64,000 bases of DNA, from the NCBI RefSeq assembly GCF_007750395.1, contig NZ_CP036281.1, positions 2,813,001-2,877,000 on the forward strand, given 5' to 3'. Of this stretch, positions 3,128 through 16,948 are shown piece by piece. A program made the position numbers and the translations under genes. Positions within the stretch are counted from its first letter, which is position 1. Every line of letters starts with the position of its first letter. The stretch comes from Polystyrenella longa. Lineage in GTDB: Bacteria > Planctomycetota > Planctomycetia > Planctomycetales > Planctomycetaceae. The notes under the pieces were generated by a model. The model saw only the letters and a program-made list of their open reading frames with translations. It had not been told where the DNA came from and ran no database searches.

Positions 3128-4708
3128 ATGCGGCTTTGTTTGCCTATTTTATTATGCGTCTCCCTGCTCACGGGGTGTGTCGTCACCGATACAGGTGTGA
3201 CCAATCCGGTGCCTGGGCTCTCTACCGTTGCGGTTGCACCGTTTCTCAACTTGAGTACTGAACGAGCCGTAGATGGTCGCCAATTTGCTGAAGCCTATTA
3301 CGCGGAACTCCAGAAAGTACCCGGTTTTGAAGTCGTTCCCGTTGGTGTCGTCGAAACAGCTATGGTCCAACATGGCTTGGAAGAAATGCGCGGACCTGAA
3401 GATGCGGTTCGCCTCGCCAAAATACTTAATGTCGATGCCGTCGTTGTTGGTGCCGTAACGGACTACAAGGCTTACGCACCGCCTCGGATGGGATTGAAAG
3501 TCTCCTGGTATTCACCATACGACTGGAGCTTCACTCCAGGCATTCCCATCGATCCTCTGGCGCGCACGCGTCTGGAAAACGAACAGGAACTGCGAGAGAA
3601 CATGTACCGGGAAGCCAACCGGCGTCCGTTGGAGTTAGGCGATTGTTGTACCTGCCCGCCCGGAGAATGCGATGGACGTTGTCTCGCACAAGCTAATTGT
3701 GATTGCGAACATGGCCTGGAAAGTTGTCAGAGTGGCCAATGCAGTGGTCTCTGTTCCGGTTCGGACTGTCAGCAATGTTCGGCTGGGAATGACGGGATGA
3801 GCGGCTGGTTTCATCAGAAGAGTGAACGAAACAAAGTGCGGTGGGAACGATTCAAAAAAGAAATGAAAGACCCGTTCGAGCTGCATAAAGGGCCTCGCGA
3901 AGACAAATTACGGGTACCAGTTCCCTGGCCTGATTACCGTGGTCAGTCTCCGGATAATCCGAGTGCGGAATTCGGACATTCGATGACCTCCAATCAGCCG
4001 ATGGCGCTCTCTGCTACAGGAACAGCTGATCAGGTGAGAATGGCTTCTGGTCATGCTGTGGAATCATTCCAGAATACGACATGGAAGCTGCAACTCAGTT
4101 CCGAGCAGATCGATCCCCAACAGTCAGCATATCAGCAGGTGGCCGCGAGTCAGCAGCCTCAATTCACCGCAAATTCGCAAATGGCATTGGTCGATGGACC
4201 GCTTCTTTTTTTACCAGGATCCAGTTCAGAGACTGTGATGATTTCACAAATGCCGCAGGCACCGCCAGTTCCGGATTCGGTAAAAAAAACGCCTGTGGAA
4301 CCACAGCCAGCATTGAGTGTACCCAAACAGACTGAGCCAGAGCCTATTGTTCCTCCAGTACCCAAATCTACAGTACAGCCACTGCCACAGAAAGAACCAG
4401 TACTGGAGATGTACCAGGTTACTCCAGGGGAGCCGCTGGAATTGCCGATGTATCAAGAGGCCTTAAACAGCCGACCCTTTATGGAATACAGCCGCATGTT
4501 TGACGCAACAGATGCGGATTTGGTGGCGAATTTCCGAGATTATTACGAATTAAGTGGTGATCCCCGAAGTGGAAGCTGGGAGTCTCGGCTTCACCGAACT
4601 GATGACTATATCCGGTTTGTATCACATTTAATGATTAAAGAGATGTTGATGCTGCACGGCGGAGAAGCCCGTCGGCGAATCATCTTTGTCCCCCGAAAGT
4701 TCAAGTGA
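3128..4708 (+). CDS. Secreted lipoprotein with CsgG-like N-terminal domain and 12-cysteine cluster
   Basis: The 526-residue product starts with a lipoprotein signal: a hydrophobic stretch ending SLLTG-C17. Residues 31-120 (STVAVAPFLNLS...VDAVVVGAVTDY) resemble the alpha/beta domain of CsgG/GNA1162-type outer membrane lipoproteins, where a conserved strand is followed by a helix and another strand. Residues 173-217 then hold 12 cysteines in 45 positions, including CC and CxC pairs. A Pro/Gln-rich low-complexity region spans roughly 330-440. The last 90 residues look folded again and end in a basic FVPRKFK. A likely role is an envelope scaffold or assembly factor, but I do not recognise the full protein. 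The start is supported by GAGAGAAAG upstream. Confidence 0.7.
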   Translation: MRLCLPILLCVSLLTGCVVTDTGVTNPVPGLSTVAVAPFLNLSTERAVDGRQFAEAYYAELQKVPGFEVVPVGVVETAMVQHGLEEMRGPEDAVRLAKILNVDAVVVGAVTDYKAYAPPRMGLKVSWYSPYDWSFTPGIPIDPLARTRLENEQELRENMYREANRRPLELGDCCTCPPGECDGRCLAQANCDCEHGLESCQSGQCSGLCSGSDCQQCSAGNDGMSGWFHQKSERNKVRWERFKKEMKDPFELHKGPREDKLRVPVPWPDYRGQSPDNPSAEFGHSMTSNQPMALSATGTADQVRMASGHAVESFQNTTWKLQLSSEQIDPQQSAYQQVAASQQPQFTANSQMALVDGPLLFLPGSSSETVMISQMPQAPPVPDSVKKTPVEPQPALSVPKQTEPEPIVPPVPKSTVQPLPQKEPVLEMYQVTPGEPLELPMYQEALNSRPFMEYSRMFDATDADLVANFRDYYELSGDPRSGSWESRLHRTDDYIRFVSHLMIKEMLMLHGGEARRRIIFVPRKFK

Positions 4709-6589: not shown

Positions 6590-8656
6590 TCATCTACGGC
6601 TCGACCGCCGCTGAGTTGGATTAAAATTAGTGCCTCTGTCGCGTGAGCCTCGGCGGTCGTCACCGTCAGACCCCTCCGTGGCAGTCGCACTACTTTGATC
6701 GTACGTAAGTCGTTCATACTTGACTGTGTTCTCGAGTTGCGATTCAGTACTTTTCTCTGCAATGTCGTCCTTAATTTTCAGGACTCCTTTTGAGTTCGTA
6801 AACAGCCCTAAAGTTGGGATGCCTGGTAAATTTCGTCCTGTTGAATCAGGAAACTGTAAGTCAGTATGAAGTTCGGGACTCAATTCAATGGGACTCTCAA
6901 ATGCCAATGCCATGTCTAGTGAATGAAAACTGACGTCCTCTTTCTCCACTTTTTGTTCGTCCGGTTTCACGACTTCGGTTCTCGTACGATCCGCTACGAA
7001 ATCTCCCAGTTTGACGCTGATTGATGAATTAATCAAAGTCCCGAGGTTCTCCAACCATTGGAATGCCTCAACTCGAGACGACCAGCGGCCTTGAACCTCA
7101 ACAGGTTCTTTAACGATGTAATATTGCAAGTCGTCCACCACGGCGACAGGCAGTGTAGGATTGCTCCAAGAGGACTCTCGGAATTCTCCTTCAACGATCT
7201 CTGGAGAGGCGACTTTGTAAAGCTCTTTCTGATAGTTCGGATTGCGAAAAACCAGTTTGACGCGATAGCGATAAATCTGGCCAGGTTCAACGGCGAAATC
7301 CAGGAACCGAAATAGCAGGAGGTTGGATTCTGCTGTAGCGGCCGACTTCAGTTTATCAATAATTTTCTTTTCGCGATCGTCGGGGGATTCTTTAAGCAGG
7401 CTATCGAGGAAGGATTCAGAGGAAGCGTTCTGTAACTGATTTACGTTATACGAAAAAGTACTAAACCCACCCTGGTTCTTCTGTGCTTCCTGTTGAACAC
7501 GAAGTTTTTCAAGTTCGCGATCGACCATCTCAGATACGATATTCTTTTGCTGTTCAATTTCTTCCGGTGAGAGAACGTAGTTTTCAATCAGTGGATGAGT
7601 GGCGTATTTCCCCCAGTTTCCGCGGGTACGAGAAGGTAGAGGCATCGTGAAAATGTTGTTGGTAACGAATTGATTCACACTCTCTGGAGAAAATCCAGCG
7701 GACCGCTGCAGAATGTTTTCCGTCACGGGGCGACTTACTTCTCGCCATTCACCCGTCCAGGGATCTTTTCCCGGCTCGGCGACCTGTCGTTCGATCTTGA
7801 AATCATAAAGGAGCTCGTCGATATTCATAACAGATTGTGCCATGGATGAGGAATTCATGGCTTTAAGTAATTCAAGCTTTTGCTGACGGACAGGGAAAAC
7901 GCCGGTGACGGAGACGAACCTATGAGGTTCAGACACAGAGGCACTCTGTCGCACCAGTCCCCCAAGTTCGCGGCGGGACCGTCGATCTTCTCGTTCAGTT
8001 TCTCGATTCGATCCGTTGCTGGCATTGTTAGCATTAGGGGTGGGACGTTGACGTCCGCGGTTATTGGTTTGCTTGGCTTCCTTTTCTTTTTTCTTGGCAT
8101 CTTCAATTCTTTGAAGTTGTTCTGAGGAGATACCAAACTGATTCATTAACTGCTGTTCCTGTTCAGACAGTTTATCTGCGCTGGTCGTATCCAATGTTTT
8201 CTCGGCCGCTTTAACCGCTTCGACTTTGTTTAAGTCAATCAAATCAAGTAAAGTTCTGCCACCATAGGCTTGTAGACCGCGTACGGTAAGAAATTCCGGC
8301 TCAACAGCAGGTTCGGTTATTTCATAGATGGGCCAATCCATGTCGGTACTGAAACCATATTTGTGTACCGCGATGGGATAAAGAATCTGTTGAATTTTAT
8401 TGTCAAGGTTCGAGTTCGCCTCAAATTGACTTCGTTCTTCTGCGGCCCAGTTGTTATCAAGGTAATCAACTCGGGCCTGATCGACCTTTGCCGTGAGCTC
8501 TTGGGGCTCAATGGGTGCGAATGACCAGTTCGTGGCGTACAAACAGTAGACCACGAATAAGACAGCGAAACTGACAAGGAACTTTTCGACATGGTTAATG
8601 AAGAAAACCTTGTAGTCCGTGGTTTTGATTTTGGTGATTACATTTTTGAAATTCAT
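6590..8656 (-). CDS. Membrane-anchored hypothetical protein, third gene of PilM operon
   Basis: The 688-residue product has a short cytoplasmic N-terminus, one transmembrane segment near residues 25-46 (KFLVSFAVLFVVYCLYATNW) and a large extracytoplasmic part. A charged, Gln/Asn/Arg-rich disordered stretch lies at about residues 190-235. A region around 445-560 (LLLFRFLDFAVEPGQIYRYRVKLVFRNPNY) looks like a beta-sandwich and is probably the main folded domain. The C-terminus is again Arg/Ser-rich. It follows the second gene with 71 bp between, and shares the operon led by PilM-PilN. The topology fits a PilO/PilP-like alignment-complex part, but I cannot identify a PilP domain, so the role is inferred from context. 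Confidence 0.72.
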   Translation of the reverse strand: MNFKNVITKIKTTDYKVFFINHVEKFLVSFAVLFVVYCLYATNWSFAPIEPQELTAKVDQARVDYLDNNWAAEERSQFEANSNLDNKIQQILYPIAVHKYGFSTDMDWPIYEITEPAVEPEFLTVRGLQAYGGRTLLDLIDLNKVEAVKAAEKTLDTTSADKLSEQEQQLMNQFGISSEQLQRIEDAKKKEKEAKQTNNRGRQRPTPNANNASNGSNRETEREDRRSRRELGGLVRQSASVSEPHRFVSVTGVFPVRQQKLELLKAMNSSSMAQSVMNIDELLYDFKIERQVAEPGKDPWTGEWREVSRPVTENILQRSAGFSPESVNQFVTNNIFTMPLPSRTRGNWGKYATHPLIENYVLSPEEIEQQKNIVSEMVDRELEKLRVQQEAQKNQGGFSTFSYNVNQLQNASSESFLDSLLKESPDDREKKIIDKLKSAATAESNLLLFRFLDFAVEPGQIYRYRVKLVFRNPNYQKELYKVASPEIVEGEFRESSWSNPTLPVAVVDDLQYYIVKEPVEVQGRWSSRVEAFQWLENLGTLINSSISVKLGDFVADRTRTEVVKPDEQKVEKEDVSFHSLDMALAFESPIELSPELHTDLQFPDSTGRNLPGIPTLGLFTNSKGVLKIKDDIAEKSTESQLENTVKYERLTYDQSSATATEGSDGDDRRGSRDRGTNFNPTQRRSSRR

Positions 8657-8727
8657 GGTTGGTTCCGAATTTCAGAGTATTTTAAAAGAGTATATGTACG
8701 GTGTTGGCTAAAGTTTCGACTTTGTAC

Positions 8728-10410
8728 TTAGTCTCTACCATTTCTGTTCGTGGCTGGTAATGCACGATTCAGTTCACCCGGCTGATTTTCTTCCTGGTCG
8801 GCTGGAACCTCTTCTTGCGTATTCAATTTATCCAGCATTGTTTCCAGTTTGAAAACAGCCATGTACCCTGCGATTGCAACATCCGCCAGGTATGGGTTAG
8901 ACAAGATGTCCGTCTCAACTGAACCAGTCGCGACTCCTGGAGCTTTGCTGGTGCCTGTTGGGGAGGGAGAGGCCTCTTCATTCTCTTCGTCTTCATCTCG
9001 ACTCCGTCGAATGGAACCTGAACCTTGGCTGCGAGTAGCAAGCTCGCTTTGGTTATGTTTGCGTGATACCGCCTGAACGCGGGCGATCACGGTTGGGTAC
9101 TTCATGTTAGTCAAGTTACCAATGAGTTCAGGAAGTTTTCGATGGTCCATAGTGACTTCGATATAGAATCCCCGTGTCACGAATTCCTTAGTGTCATCGA
9201 TGTCAATATACCGCGTTTCTTTACGTGGAACGAAAGTGGCAGTGTCGATCGATACCTTGTCTAATTCAGGAGCGGCTTCTTGAGTGGTTGCTTCCCTCAG
9301 TGCAGCTAATCTTGCCCGATCTTCAGCAGATAGTCCACCTCCTCTTCTACCATCGTCTTCTTGAGAAGTATCTGCAGCTGTTTTCTGTTTCTCCTGCTGT
9401 TTAAATTGGTCGGATTCTGGGTCAAGGTGAGGCATGCCAAACTGAGTAGAGGGGTCGAAACCGGCCAAATTACCTTCGACTGCTGTCCGAGCTACGCTTT
9501 TCGCCGGCGTGTCATCTTTAGCATTCGCTTTGGTTATTTCTTCATCTCGGATTCGGGCTACCGCTCCTTTAGAAATATTTGATTTTCCCGATGCACCAAT
9601 ACGTTCGAGAACGCGCTGATCGATGTCTCCACCTCCTCCACCAGACTGATTGATGTCAACATCCTCATATCCAGCCGGATCTCGGAAGTCAGAAATACTT
9701 CCTCCCAAAAGTTGGATTTGCTGAATTTGCTTTATGGGAGCCTTTCCGATAGAGATAGCCGAGGAGTTGATATTGCGGATCGCTTCTACAAGTGAAGCCT
9801 GAAGCGAAAGATCCTCCAGGGAATCCCAAATTTGCAGATCTGATGGCATTGCTCCGCTGGGAGATAGCCAGTCATCTGAATTTGGATAGCGTTGCAGAAC
9901 AGTTTCAGGGTTGAGGAAAATGTTACCTGATTTGGTAAATGGATCGTAAGGTTCAAGACTTTCGACAAGTTTATCGATCTCTTTCTTGTAACCGTCGTCC
10001 AATCGTTTTCCACCACTGCCCAGAGTACCGGCGAAATGACGGCGTACTTCCAGGTCATTAAACTGTTGCCGATACTGAAACTCTTTTTCTTCAACAATAC
10101 TCGCAACCGACGCGGGCCAGGTGAGGTCTAATTGCTGAGATCGGAACAGCTTTTCAATCGAAGCCTGCTGTTGGGCCTCGTTGACTTCATTCAGCTTTTC
10201 AGCATTTTCAATCCAGTTTTGGTTTGGTCCACTGATATTCTGGACTTTGTTTTCCGCCTCAACAATTGCATTCTTGCGTTGATCAATGATGGATGTGGTC
10301 GCAGCAGCCATATTCTGCCAAGCCCAGATCGGTAGAATGATCACAACTACGGCGAGGATCCAGTAATGGTGTCGAGTCGCTCCGGCGAAAAATGATTTAA
10401 CATATTCCAT
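8728..10410 (-). CDS. Membrane-anchored PilO-like protein of the PilM operon
   Basis: Using the ATG at 10410, which has AGGAAA eight bases upstream, the product is 560 residues with one N-terminal transmembrane segment (HYWILAVVVIILPIWAWQNMAA, about residues 14-35). A helical region predicted to coil (IDQRKNAIVEAENKVQNI...) comes next. A second folded domain near residues 400-460 reads VTRGFYIEVTMDHRKLPELIGNLTNMKYPTVIARVQAVSR. That is the pattern of the PilO/GspM ferredoxin-like domain, in which a strand is followed by a helix that selects a small loop. Long Gly/Glu/Asp-rich linkers separate the parts. Position directly after PilM-PilN is where PilO sits in standard operons. PilO identity is an inference. 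The frame is open to 10446, but the upstream codons have no ribosome site. Confidence 0.72.
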   Translation of the reverse strand: MEYVKSFFAGATRHHYWILAVVVIILPIWAWQNMAAATTSIIDQRKNAIVEAENKVQNISGPNQNWIENAEKLNEVNEAQQQASIEKLFRSQQLDLTWPASVASIVEEKEFQYRQQFNDLEVRRHFAGTLGSGGKRLDDGYKKEIDKLVESLEPYDPFTKSGNIFLNPETVLQRYPNSDDWLSPSGAMPSDLQIWDSLEDLSLQASLVEAIRNINSSAISIGKAPIKQIQQIQLLGGSISDFRDPAGYEDVDINQSGGGGGDIDQRVLERIGASGKSNISKGAVARIRDEEITKANAKDDTPAKSVARTAVEGNLAGFDPSTQFGMPHLDPESDQFKQQEKQKTAADTSQEDDGRRGGGLSAEDRARLAALREATTQEAAPELDKVSIDTATFVPRKETRYIDIDDTKEFVTRGFYIEVTMDHRKLPELIGNLTNMKYPTVIARVQAVSRKHNQSELATRSQGSGSIRRSRDEDEENEEASPSPTGTSKAPGVATGSVETDILSNPYLADVAIAGYMAVFKLETMLDKLNTQEEVPADQEENQPGELNRALPATNRNGRD

Positions 10411-10500
10411 ATTAATTTTCCTGGATTGGATTCTCGTAAGATGCAAATTGAAGTCAGAAGTAAAAGTTTAATAAGAAAGAACTAGCAGTAATCCTGAGTG

Positions 10501-12681
10501 TTAGTCTCTGCCAGATCCGAAGGTACGAGTCTCTGGTTCCGCTTTCAATGGCTTCGTCCCCGAACCAAGTTTTGATCTCAGTTCCATCCCTTCAGCTACA
10601 GTTTCGCCACGAAATTCAGTAGGAGTTGGAATCCAGATAAATTGAATCATAAAAGTCGTTTCCAAAATCGACTTTTTTTCTTCGACTTCCGTACCCGGGG
10701 TGGTCGATCGAATGGGGGTTCTCGATTGACCACGGCCTCTGCTTCTCCGGCGATCGCGTTCCTCGTCGACATTCTGATTACCTGCATCCGGTTTCGGTTG
10801 TTCCTCCAACTTAACGTTGGGGCCTTCCAGAAACTCGTTAGGATCAAACTCGTTACCAGAGAGATCAAGTTCGCGAGCTATTAATTCGTAATTCGCCAAG
10901 ACGGGATAACTGATTCCCTGTTTTCCAATTGGAAAAGAGAATCCGCCTGATAAAGGAATCGTCCATTCCTGTAGATTCTTCAATACAGTGTTCTTGATGT
11001 ATCCCTCTGCCTGCCCCTTCAGAAGATCGTTTTCATCGTAGTGGTAACTAATGCCTTCCAATGTGAACAGATAACCGTTTGCATTGGGTGGATTGTCTCT
11101 GTCTCGATCCGAGAGGGTGGCCGCTGCCAGGTCGTCCGCCAGTATTTCATTGTACCAGTTAGTAAGCTGGCTAGCGCTCTGTTTGTTCGCAGTAATGGAA
11201 GTCAATCGAATCTGCTCGCGATCAGGAAGATCCATGTCATCGATGAGGTCAGGATTGTCTCGAGGGAGAGATTCATTAATCGCTTTATAGACTTCCAGCC
11301 ATAGTTCCCGATTCTCGACGAAACTGGTAAAGCTGTTGGCCTTCGCTGCAATTTTCTTGTTGGCAGCAACAAGTTCATCGTATTTGGATTTAGCCTGATC
11401 AACTGTGGTCTTCAGGCTAGTGGCTGCATTTTCTGCATCACCAAACCGTTCCTCGGAAACAGAGCCGCTGACCATTGAGTAGGCCAATGTGGAGAACGTG
11501 ACGCCTGCCATAATGGTAGCCGCAGTCACCATCGCCCACGGTTTTTTCTGACGTATTTTACGTGTCGTTAGGATCTCGGGAGGAAGCAGGTTGGTTTTGA
11601 TTCGGCATTGATCCAGCATCTGTAGAGCAATACCGTAGGGAACGGCATAAGTGAGGATGTTCTCAGTAAACATTGGCTCGCTGATGACTTTGTCACCGAC
11701 GAGTTCGTTAAACGAATCGAGTCGTTCGACGTCATATTGGAGGTTCTGTTGGAGGAACTTCTGCAGGCCGGCCATGCGGAAGCCGTTACCGACCCCCACG
11801 ACGCGGCTGATCTGAGCGTCGCGGTTCACACTGGAGAAGAATCCGATAGACCGCTGAATCTCGGCGACGAAATTATTGAATACGGGGCGTAATGCCTGAA
11901 AAACAGCGCGTGGGTCGGGAGAACGAGTGGCATTGCATTTGAGATGCTCCGCTTTGGCGAAGGTTAACTTCATTTCCTTCGTTAACGCTCTGGTGAAGTG
12001 GTTTCCACCAATACCAACATTTCGCGTCCAGATTTTCTGACCGTTGGAGACGATCAAGGTGGTGTTGTCGACACCCATATCAAGTAGCAGGATATACTCG
12101 CCATCAGTCGCGGGCTGGTCTTCTGCTTTTAAGCCAAGTTGATCGAAGGTGAGGAAGTTGAACAGTGCCAGCGGTGCTGTCTGGATTAGATCAAGTTCGA
12201 TTTTGACTTCAGAGAAGGGACGAAAATGCTGTTCGATGAGGTCGCGTTTCATGGCGAACAGACCGACTTCGGCATCGAGCATGTAGCCCGTTTCTTCGTC
12301 GGCAGTTCCGAATGTCTGGTAGTCCCAGATAACTTCGTCGAGGTCGAAAGGAATCTGCTGCCGTGCTTCGAACTGGACAATGTCTTTGATTTTGCTGGCG
12401 TCCACCGGTGGCAGTTGGACGAATCGAGTCAGTGCCGCCTGACCTGGAACACTGATACCGACGACATCGTTGTTCAGCTTATTGCGGGACAGAAACTTTT
12501 CGATTGATTGGGCAATCAATTCTTCCGGTATCGCGTCCGGTTGGCTGAGAATCTTGGGATGGGGCACGAAGTCGAATGCGGTGGCGACCACCTGCTCCGT
12601 GTTCTCATTGAATTCCAATCGAATCGCTTTAAGGGCGGATTGTCCAATTTCAATGCCCCATGCGCCTCGTTTGCTTGCCAT
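10501..12681 (-). CDS. pilM: PilM-PilN fusion, type IV pilus inner-membrane alignment protein
   Basis: Residues 1-360 of this 726-residue protein are an actin-like PilM ATPase fold: GIEIGQSALKAIRL phosphate-1-like strand pair, FEARQQIPFDLDEVIWDY (a PilM hallmark), LLLDMGVDNTTLIV phosphate-2, and GVGNGFRMAGL adenosine motif. PilM normally ends there. Here the chain continues with IKTNLLPPEI, the PilN N-terminal peptide that binds PilM, a basic patch, a transmembrane helix at residues 381-403 and a coiled-coil plus ferredoxin-like periplasmic region with SITANKQSASQLTNWYNEI. The result is PilM and PilN covalently joined. The C-terminal 80 residues are Pro/Arg-rich. The ATG at 12681 is preceded by GAGGA. 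It leads a three-gene operon. Confidence 0.88.
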   Translation of the reverse strand: MASKRGAWGIEIGQSALKAIRLEFNENTEQVVATAFDFVPHPKILSQPDAIPEELIAQSIEKFLSRNKLNNDVVGISVPGQAALTRFVQLPPVDASKIKDIVQFEARQQIPFDLDEVIWDYQTFGTADEETGYMLDAEVGLFAMKRDLIEQHFRPFSEVKIELDLIQTAPLALFNFLTFDQLGLKAEDQPATDGEYILLLDMGVDNTTLIVSNGQKIWTRNVGIGGNHFTRALTKEMKLTFAKAEHLKCNATRSPDPRAVFQALRPVFNNFVAEIQRSIGFFSSVNRDAQISRVVGVGNGFRMAGLQKFLQQNLQYDVERLDSFNELVGDKVISEPMFTENILTYAVPYGIALQMLDQCRIKTNLLPPEILTTRKIRQKKPWAMVTAATIMAGVTFSTLAYSMVSGSVSEERFGDAENAATSLKTTVDQAKSKYDELVAANKKIAAKANSFTSFVENRELWLEVYKAINESLPRDNPDLIDDMDLPDREQIRLTSITANKQSASQLTNWYNEILADDLAAATLSDRDRDNPPNANGYLFTLEGISYHYDENDLLKGQAEGYIKNTVLKNLQEWTIPLSGGFSFPIGKQGISYPVLANYELIARELDLSGNEFDPNEFLEGPNVKLEEQPKPDAGNQNVDEERDRRRSRGRGQSRTPIRSTTPGTEVEEKKSILETTFMIQFIWIPTPTEFRGETVAEGMELRSKLGSGTKPLKAEPETRTFGSGRD

Positions 12682-13660: not shown

Positions 13661-16600
13661 GTGATGAGTTATCAGGAAATCTGCACCCTCATTCCTACTT
13701 ACGATCTGGAAGATTTTCCAACCGATCTAGAGGAGTCTCAGGCCGAGAGTCTGCTCAACTGTTTTGCAGTGATGTGGCATCCGCTGCTGATCGCAAACAT
13801 GACGCAGCTCCCTTCCTGGCGACGGTTGGAATCGGAACCGGAGATCTTTGCGGACCGTTTGGTCTTTGTGCCGACTGCCTGTAGCTGGATCAGTCCAGAC
13901 TTCGCGGACCGGGTTCTTGAAAATGGAGGGACTGTGATTGAGGGGCTGGTCACGCGAGATGAATGGATCGAAGCGATTCACGTCGTGTTACGCAACAATC
14001 AACCCACCCTGTATAAACGGCCTCCGCAGCACGATCAGGAACACGACTTCGATTATGTCCATGATGATGGCCATTCTCCCTCTGTCGACGACCAACTGGT
14101 GTTAACAGACCCCCATGAGGCAGCTTCTCAGTTGGTTTCTGATTTGATGATCAAAACCAGGAGCGAACTACTGGCGGAAGCAAAATCAGAGAGTGTGAGC
14201 GAGGCAGATGACGCACAGCAGATAATTGAGGAAACTGCCGATACGCAGAATATTCCGGAAGTCGTAGATTTGTCGGAGATGCTTAGCCGGTTATCCCCTG
14301 ATTTAGAACGCGATTTTATGGCGCTCGGATTCGCCTACCTTCAGATTGAACTTCTCTCCCGACAGATGCATCATTTTTCGTCAGTGGATGATATCGCCCT
14401 GCGACTGTCGGCCTCGAAGGCGGCAAAGAGCGCGCTGGAAGGGGACGAACCGGCAGCTCGGAGGGGGTTAAGTCGCTGTTTTGAGCTATTGCAGGACGTC
14501 CGCGAGATTTTCTATCCCGTCGAATCTTATCTGGTTGATCTCTGCCTGTTAGCCCCTGATTCGGATCCGGAAAAGCTGAAAGCAATCTGTGAACAGGCCA
14601 GTCGTAAGCATGATCGAGAAGAGACTGGAGAAGAGGAACCGGCTCCCGGTTCTGCTTATCGTCATCCTGTCAACTTTATGCTGAGTGCAGCGGAACTACA
14701 GGAGCTTGATGAGGCGCAACCTGAAGCGTGTGCTGAGTTGGCCACGACCTGGAATCAGGGGAAGATCGATTTCTGTGGTGGCGAACAGCTTGACCGTCCA
14801 GCATCTTTATTGCCAGTGGAGTCGGTATTATGGAATTTTAATAAGGGACATGAGACTTACGAGCGGATTCTTAATCAGAGACCGAAAATGTGGGCCCGAC
14901 GTAGGTTTGGGTTTTCAACATTATTGCCCATGTTATTAAAACGGATGGGTTACAAATCAGCGTTGCATTTCGCACTCGACGATGGAATTTACCCGGACGA
15001 AGAGCATACCCGTTTTCAGTGGGAAGGTGCAGACGGTTCATTTATCGATACCTGCAGCCGAATTCCCATGGCGGCGGATTCGGCCAGTAGTTTTCTTAAG
15101 TTCCCGCAACGGCTTTCCGAAAGCATGCAGGGAGACAATGTGGCGGGAGTTATTCTGGCTCGCTATCCGGAAGAAAAAACTCCCTGGATGGAAGACCTTC
15201 GCCGCATCGCCGCTTACGCGCCTGTCCTGGGTAAGTTTGTGACTTGGTCGGAACTCTTCAATCATAAAGACCATTACAGCAAACAGTCGCGATACTCTCA
15301 GAAAGAGTATCTGAGTCCCGTATTAATACAACGAGTGGCTTATGAACTATCGGATCCCATCAGCCAATTCCGCGAGCATTATGGCCAGCGGGCCGAGTTG
15401 AGCCGGATTGAATGGGCGACGGCCATTGAACGAATCCTGAGAAGCAAACCTCTCGAAAACGCAGAACTATACGAATTGGAAGAAGCGATTGAAGCTATCG
15501 GTCCCGTTAGCGAGTTGACTCCACCGTCAAGTTGGAATGAATCACAGCAAGAGTCGGAGTCCGATACCGACGAAGAAAAACAAACCGAATTCAGCGTGGA
15601 TGTTCGTCTGGACAAAGCGCTGAATGGAGCCGTACAGCAGTTAGCGTCAATGCTGGCTCAGGGGGCGGGCGATCGTCCGGGGAGTCTGTTGTTTAATCCA
15701 CTGCCACACTCAAGGCGCACGGTTGTCTTCTGGCCAGAGGGTGCTTCTCTTCCCGAAGTGAGTGATGTTGTTCGCGCGGTTCAGGGAGAGGGCCCACGGA
15801 AGGTGGTTGTGGTCGATTTACCCGCTAGTGGTTTTACCTGGCTCGCCGATGCCACATCGCCTCATCCTTCGTTACCCGAGTTACGATTTCCGGCGGTGGA
15901 AGAGAATATTCTTCGAAACGAGTTCTTCGAGGTGCACATTAACCCGAGTACAGGCGGAATCGCGAAGATAAAAGGGATGGAGCGTTCCCCCGTTCGTTTG
16001 AGCCAGCAGGTCGCCTACCGATTTCCGCGTGAGCAGGAATATGTCTTCTCTGTTGACGGCGAGTCGAAAACGATCCAGTCATTCTACTCTGAGCCTGTTT
16101 GCCGACGTTGCGATTTGACGGCTACTGGACCGGTGATGAATGAAATTACGACCGAAACGGATTTGTATGATCCCGTGCGTTCTCTCAAACTGGCGCGAGT
16201 CAAACAGGTCACGCGAGTCTATCGAGGGTGCAAATTCGTCGATGTGGAATTGGAACTGGATGTCAAGCAGATGCCGCTGGCGGATCCGTGGAGCAATTAT
16301 TACGGCATTCGGTTCGCCTGGAACGATGCCGGAGCAGCTGTCACTCGATCGATTCAACATGCCGGTTTCAGCTTTCAGGAAGATCGGTTTGAGAGCACCG
16401 AATACATCGAAATCGCCGAAGAGGAAAACCAGACAACGATCCTAATGCCCGGAATGCCTTTCCATAGGGCCCAGGGAAGCCGCATGCTGGATACGCTATT
16501 GATCACTGGCAAGGAATCGGCACGAAAGTTTCAGTTCCGTATTTCTCTGGATGAATCTGCGGCCGGTTATGCATTGAATAATTACACGCAGCCACCAGTG

Positions 16601-16948
16601 TTGTTGTCAGAGCAGCCGGGTCCCCCGGCGAGTGGTCAGAGCGGCTGGTTCTTCCATTTCAATTCTCGGCACGTTCAACTGTTGAGATTTCTGCCCGCGG
16701 CGCCTCTGGAAGAGGAGGACTCGACTCATGCCGCAGACGACAGACTTAAATATGGTTTCTGTATGAGGGTCATGGAGACATCGGGTATCAAACGTCAGTT
16801 GCAGATCAAGACCTACCGCCCTGCTCAGTTCGCGCGGCAACGAGATTACACTGGTCGGACTATTACGGAATTGCTGACGACCGAAGAAGGAGTCTCTGTT
16901 TATCTTTCTCCTTACGAAGTTGCGGAGATAGAGATCTGGTTTGGTTGA
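13661..16948 (+). CDS. GH38-like (alpha-mannosidase fold) protein lacking the usual nucleophile
   Basis: The 1095-residue protein has the layout of glycoside hydrolase family 38: an N-terminal alpha/beta domain, a central region with RFGFSTLLPMLLKRMGYKSALHFALDDGIYPDEEHTRFQWEGADGS (residues 416-460), and a large C-terminal beta-sandwich region (FFEVHINPSTGGIAKIKG onwards). The central segment corresponds to the W-x-P-D-x-F-G...LPQLL-x-x-x-G...F-W-x-G-x-DGS run of alpha-mannosidases. At the nucleophile Asp position, however, the sequence is W411-A-R-R414-R-F-G. Residues 125-190 hold an acidic, probably disordered insertion. I conclude a divergent, possibly inactive or re-purposed GH38 relative. 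It starts GTG-ATG; either codon may be used. It is followed 101 bp later by cmk. Confidence 0.68.
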   Translation: MMSYQEICTLIPTYDLEDFPTDLEESQAESLLNCFAVMWHPLLIANMTQLPSWRRLESEPEIFADRLVFVPTACSWISPDFADRVLENGGTVIEGLVTRDEWIEAIHVVLRNNQPTLYKRPPQHDQEHDFDYVHDDGHSPSVDDQLVLTDPHEAASQLVSDLMIKTRSELLAEAKSESVSEADDAQQIIEETADTQNIPEVVDLSEMLSRLSPDLERDFMALGFAYLQIELLSRQMHHFSSVDDIALRLSASKAAKSALEGDEPAARRGLSRCFELLQDVREIFYPVESYLVDLCLLAPDSDPEKLKAICEQASRKHDREETGEEEPAPGSAYRHPVNFMLSAAELQELDEAQPEACAELATTWNQGKIDFCGGEQLDRPASLLPVESVLWNFNKGHETYERILNQRPKMWARRRFGFSTLLPMLLKRMGYKSALHFALDDGIYPDEEHTRFQWEGADGSFIDTCSRIPMAADSASSFLKFPQRLSESMQGDNVAGVILARYPEEKTPWMEDLRRIAAYAPVLGKFVTWSELFNHKDHYSKQSRYSQKEYLSPVLIQRVAYELSDPISQFREHYGQRAELSRIEWATAIERILRSKPLENAELYELEEAIEAIGPVSELTPPSSWNESQQESESDTDEEKQTEFSVDVRLDKALNGAVQQLASMLAQGAGDRPGSLLFNPLPHSRRTVVFWPEGASLPEVSDVVRAVQGEGPRKVVVVDLPASGFTWLADATSPHPSLPELRFPAVEENILRNEFFEVHINPSTGGIAKIKGMERSPVRLSQQVAYRFPREQEYVFSVDGESKTIQSFYSEPVCRRCDLTATGPVMNEITTETDLYDPVRSLKLARVKQVTRVYRGCKFVDVELELDVKQMPLADPWSNYYGIRFAWNDAGAAVTRSIQHAGFSFQEDRFESTEYIEIAEEENQTTILMPGMPFHRAQGSRMLDTLLITGKESARKFQFRISLDESAAGYALNNYTQPPVLLSEQPGPPASGQSGWFFHFNSRHVQLLRFLPAAPLEEEDSTHAADDRLKYGFCMRVMETSGIKRQLQIKTYRPAQFARQRDYTGRTITELLTTEEGVSVYLSPYEVAEIEIWFG

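Follow-up and report, generated by a model that had tools for sequence, protein, structure and literature searches.

Three adjacent genes of the planctomycete Polystyrenella longa, here called P1, P2 and P3, probably encode an alignment complex in the inner membrane, belonging to a machine like the type IV pilus and joined to a secretin, secB, whose gene lies elsewhere on the same chromosome. This reading rests on the domains of P1, the predicted fold of P2, the gene order of secretins in other genomes and the displaced position of secB. It points to a machine, spread across the phylum, that may build the attachment fibres of planctomycetes, and it puts a name to the missing pore gene.

The locus and its PilM-PilN chain

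The window, the whole stretch of 64,000 nucleotides that was analysed, lies on a single contig of 6.13 Mb, at positions 2813001-2877000. The original prediction, made from the letters of this window, had placed three genes at 6590-12681, and the open reading frames were indeed found there, co-directional on the minus strand and separated by gaps of 90 and 71 bp: P1 (10501..12681, 726 aa), P2 (8728..10410, 560 aa when counted from the ATG, the mechanical frame beginning 12 codons earlier) and P3 (6590..8656, 688 aa).

Residues 9-354 of P1 (11620..12657, minus strand) constitute a PilM actin-like cytoplasmic domain, matched over its full length by the Pfam model PilM_2 (PF11104, 4e-34) and by PDB profiles (3jc8_Ma, 2.9e-42, and also 2ych), and P1 scores 162 bits with TIGR01175, above the cut-off of 133. 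The NCBIfam Amuc_1101 model extends past the PilM domain, over residues 49-492 (3.8e-66), but its score of 224 bits does not reach the cut-off (650), so P1 is regarded as a relative of Amuc_1101 and not as its equivalog. The chain then continues, with no stop codon, into an NLLP peptide (residues 364-367, 11581..11592), corresponding to the PilM-binding peptide of PilN, a membrane helix defined by hydropathy and aligned to that of PilN (residues about 382-400, 11482..11538), and, by profile comparison, a PilN-like region made up of coiled coil and periplasmic domain, in which a low-complexity insert occurs late (residues 410-700, 10582..11454), all on the minus strand. The profile built from 54 P1 relatives could be aligned to PilM chains of solved structure and, through the NLLP motif, to the engineered PilM-PilN chain 5EOU; the motif is conserved phylum-wide in P1, as INLLP in some deep lineages. 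From residue 350 onwards, P1 matches the profile of ordinary planctomycete PilN (hhalign, 97.6%, E 4.6e-12), and the controls fail (3.1% for the reversed alignment, at most 0.1% for shuffled columns). The peptide and membrane helix alone reach 95.9% and carry the bulk of the signal, the periplasmic part alone (410-726) giving 74%. The Pfam PilN model did not match P1, and no GspL family model was present among its Pfam and NCBIfam matches.

Judged from its sequence, P1 is a natural fusion of PilM with PilN, of which it has the binding peptide, the membrane-spanning helix, the coiled coil and the beginning of the periplasmic domain, in agreement with the predicted succession of the two proteins without a break. 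Such a one-chain layout is not unprecedented, since GspL of type II secretion combines an actin-like cytoplasmic domain, a membrane helix and a ferredoxin-like periplasmic domain in one chain. The genome also encodes separate, normal PilM and PilN proteins (G000:C1:4736133-4737847), a situation in which the original prediction would regard the fusion as a side branch.

The nearest relatives of the window were recorded as Planctomycetaceae, including Gimesia, Schlesneria and Fuerstiella, and the P1-P2-P3 order recurs across the class and the phylum. The proposal that the partners of P1 are lineage-specific is thus not sustained, P2 being moreover Amuc_1100/PilO-like. P1 matches were obtained in 195 of 199 genomes, a tally that takes in ordinary PilM, and an uninterrupted fused frame of at least 530 aa was observed in at least 117 genomes (E up to about 1e-43 among the matches listed). 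Neither a P1 match nor a close PilB was detected in G193, G236 and G238. G091, a 100% complete genome, has no P1 match and keeps a secretin like those of the three sister genomes of its genus, which have P1. The proteins are compact in deep lineages (584, 303 and 266 aa for P1, P2 and P3 in L126), from which we consider the large size of P2 and P3 in P. longa to be the result of growth by inserts.

Just upstream of P1, a divergent gene encodes a GH38-like glycosidase (window 13661-16948, plus strand). Such a divergent gene (about 950-1095 aa) lies beside P1 in about 50 of 120 loci, from several orders, 99 of the 120 having at least 4 kb upstream and a few records being duplicated, and it is often followed by a cytidylate kinase gene; the gene may be tied to the pilus operon in function or regulation. 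A further gene of the window (3128-4708, plus strand) encodes what is probably a lipoprotein, 526 aa long and rich in cysteine over one stretch, with no match in Pfam or NCBIfam.

P2, P3 and the displaced secretin

Sequence searches with P2, including Pfam and NCBIfam, returned no family match, and its sequence profile showed a weak likeness to PilO (hhalign, 76% over only 45 columns). A compact relative (L127, 301 aa) matches the NCBIfam Amuc_1100 model with an E-value of 6.6e-4, far under the cut-off. An AlphaFold2 model of P2 was obtained from an alignment of 58 relatives (mean pLDDT 74, core above 90), and its ten best Foldseek matches in the PDB are exclusively Amuc_1100 or PilO chains; despite weak Foldseek E-values (0.1-0.65), the Z-scores and the specificity of these matches are good. 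VIA alignment of the model yielded Z 11.4 with Amuc_1100 (162 of 171 residues, 3.2 Å), Z 7.5 with PilO 2rjz (122 residues) and Z 5.7 with XcpY, the periplasmic domain of GspL, unrelated folds reaching at most 5.3. A single N-terminal membrane helix was identified in P2, and the Amuc_1100/PilO-like core, as delimited by VIA alignment (residues 80-522, 8845..10173, minus strand), is broken by low-confidence, probably disordered stretches (245-313, 376-397 and about 468-494). P2 is predicted from this model to fold like PilO and to be closest to Amuc_1100 of Akkermansia, which has been investigated as a pilus protein of the cell surface with a role in signalling to the host.

P3 likewise possesses a single N-terminal membrane helix. 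Its AlphaFold2 model (pLDDT 80) contains low-confidence, probably disordered regions at residues 192-234 and in the C-terminal tail, so that the disordered inserts that had been foreseen in these 560- and 688-residue proteins are probably present in both. The main part of an Ig/FN3-like domain was located by VIA alignment at residues 446-509 (7130..7321, minus strand), with a first strand at about 118-140: the model aligns with an FN3-bearing chain with Z 7.5 over 102 residues (2.9 Å), Ig/FN3 domains make up most of the Foldseek and VIA lists, and the compact P3 of L122 matches Pfam fn3 with 2.8e-4, just under the cut-off. No other domain was recognised in the P3 model. P3 is regarded as a linker because its gene comes after the PilO-like one and before that of the secretin.

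We also considered P3 as a PilP or a GspC. Neither phmmer nor the PDB profile search gave a match to these proteins, hhalign gave none with 15 planctomycete PilP-like sequences, and fold searches with the P3 model (Foldseek, VIA) revealed no PilP or GspC likeness; the assignment is unsupported by these searches, the absence of a match not being proof.

Four secretins are encoded in the genome. One of them, secB (1522 aa, L025:6135-10703, equal to G000:C1:4524135-4528703), is the ortholog of the secretins that adjoin P3 elsewhere: operon-adjacent secretins taken from three other genomes reach 397-558 bits with secB and no more than 38 bits with the remaining three. The secB gene is located on the same chromosome, 1.7 Mb from the P1-P2-P3 locus. 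A secretin gene lies at most 0.7 kb downstream of P1-P2-P3 and on the same strand in 20 loci (e.g., Singulisphaera acidiphila, L191), a count that leaves aside short secB matches in L135 and L139 (confined to the secretin model's C-terminal part) and a match upstream of P1 in L151/L063. It is not adjacent in 51 loci that have at least 4 kb downstream, many Planctomycetaceae among them. The Pfam Secretin domain is recognised in secB with 8.6e-22, its TPRs being sub-threshold, and both TPR and Secretin are found by Pfam in the P3-adjacent secretins of L122, L126 and L127. Orthology thus indicates that the secretin of the P1-P2-P3 system is displaced in the genome, not absent. The predicted lack of both PilP and PilQ holds within the locus, where neither a PilP gene nor a secretin gene was found, but not for the system, whose PilQ would be secB.

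The secretin domain of secB is split by long low-complexity inserts rich in Gly and Thr (residues 1095-1169 and 1334-1436), and a similar insert is present in the Singulisphaera secretin. Just upstream of secB, a gene (L025:4438-5712) encodes a lipoprotein-like PpiC-type peptidyl-prolyl isomerase, which could assist the folding of secB.

Motor genes and alternative readings

The genome contains separate pilB, pilC and secretin genes, a point that the original prediction had proposed to check: PilB and PilC are encoded in two clusters, L019 and L021, in addition to the four secretins. L019 is an ordinary set, composed of PilB, PilC, PilM, PilN (PF05137, above cut-off), PilO (PF04350, above cut-off) and, where PilP would be expected, a short membrane protein. 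L021 (C1:4632-4648 kb) comprises PilB, PilT (432 bits, above cut-off), PilB', PilC and several pilin-like genes, with no PilMNOPQ of its own, and is the best candidate for the motor and pilins of P1-P3 and secB. Its PilB is nearly universal in the phylum, for which reason the co-occurrence of PilB and P1 is uninformative as a motor link. Beside the operon, no PilB or PilC was found in 120 loci except one PilB-like ATPase in L073. Pilin-like genes directly follow the secretin in one deep lineage (L127), the others near the operon in the 120 loci being scattered single ORFs.

An N-terminal cyclic di-GMP-binding motif of the MshE type scores above cut-off in the PilB-type ATPases at L021:10206-11912 and L019:14789-16537, which suggests that cyclic di-GMP may control pilus assembly.

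In the machine that we infer, P1, P2 and P3 would form a complex in which P1 supplies both PilN and the actin-like PilM subunit of the cytoplasmic ring as a single chain, P2 acts as PilO and pairs with P1 in the periplasm, and P3 serves as a membrane-anchored periplasmic linker in the position of PilP, with its Ig/FN3-like domain. Together they would connect a PilB/PilC motor, presumably that of L021, to the TPR-bearing secretin secB, through which a filament, probably made of pilins, would leave the cell, most likely for attachment. Several observations speak against this arrangement, namely the absent link of P3 to PilP or GspC, the lack of an adjacent motor in the 120 loci save L073, the loci with a non-adjacent secretin, the weak Foldseek E-values of P2, and G091, in which the secretin is kept without P1.

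A rival reading is a type II secretion-like assembly, in which P1, P2 and P3 would be GspL, GspM and GspC and a short pseudopilus would push proteins out through secB. The layout of GspL equals that of P1, P2 also matches XcpY, and P3 resembles GspC in its membrane anchor and is not evidently a lipoprotein, as PilP is. We consider this assembly unlikely, however, as P1 is matched by PilM models and by no GspL family in Pfam or NCBIfam, PilO and Amuc_1100 resemble P2 more than XcpY does, and the genome already has a type II-like GspE-F-G-H-I-J-K-like cluster (L020), to which a PilM/GspL-like protein and a secretin of the GspD type belong. Still less probable, and in our estimation very unlikely, is a pilus-independent, envelope-spanning attachment structure, consisting of the alignment complex and the secretin and having no dedicated motor or pilin. 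The absence of motor genes beside the operon in the 120 loci and the restriction of an adjacent pilin gene cluster to one lineage fit this structure, and the gene list of the described Akkermansia locus is likewise devoid of a motor (PMC13174399). Yet the PilM domain and the PilN peptide, which couple to the motor in known systems, are conserved, and PilB, PilT, PilC and pilins that have no alignment complex of their own are present in the genome, the L021-type PilB being found, like PilM-type proteins, almost throughout the phylum. Our preferred reading remains an alignment complex that serves a machine of the type IV pilus kind.

Relation to known systems

The nearest described relative of P1-P2-P3 is the Akkermansia locus Amuc_1098-1102, named MUL2 and proposed to build an attachment pilus, in which amuc_1099 and amuc_1100 are termed uncharacterised (PMC13174399). 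The placement of the three proteins on an inner-membrane machine related to type IV pili or type II secretion is borne out by profiles and by the predicted fold; such a machine is not undescribed, as had been suggested, but of a known, MUL2-related kind. Amuc_1101 is PilM-like with an extra C-terminal part that matches P1 up to residue 492, the predicted fold of P2 is that of Amuc_1100, and Amuc_1098 is an outer-membrane secretin with N-terminal TPRs (PMC4960237), and TPRs are also borne by the P3-adjacent secretins of L122, L126 and L127. The described MUL2 gene list includes no motor (PMC13174399), as is the case for the planctomycete operon. The planctomycete system differs from MUL2 in its much longer P2 and P3, with disordered inserts, in a P1 that stays below the 650-bit equivalog cut-off of Amuc_1101, and in the secretin gene, which is relocated in the Polystyrenella genome; no counterpart of Amuc_1102 was identified.

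We tentatively propose, with somewhat more doubt than confidence, that a PilM-PilN fusion, an Amuc_1100-like PilO, an Ig-domain P3 and a TPR-secretin define a distinct class, of ancient origin, among type IV filament machines, common to Planctomycetota and Verrucomicrobiota, of which Amuc_1100 would at root be the inner-membrane PilO subunit. The gene order adds an evolutionary argument on the role of Amuc_1100, its relatives being encoded throughout a phylum directly after the PilM-PilN fusion and before the secretin, in the place of PilO.

P1 shares the one-chain layout of GspL and differs from it in matching PilM, not GspL, models. In contrast to the type IVa PilMNOP-PilQ system, the planctomycete system has PilM and PilN as a single polypeptide, P1, a P3 in which an Ig/FN3-like domain but no likeness to PilP could be detected, and a TPR-bearing secretin, whereas the PilM domain, the PilN peptide and coiled coil, the PilO-like fold and the secretin itself are common to both.
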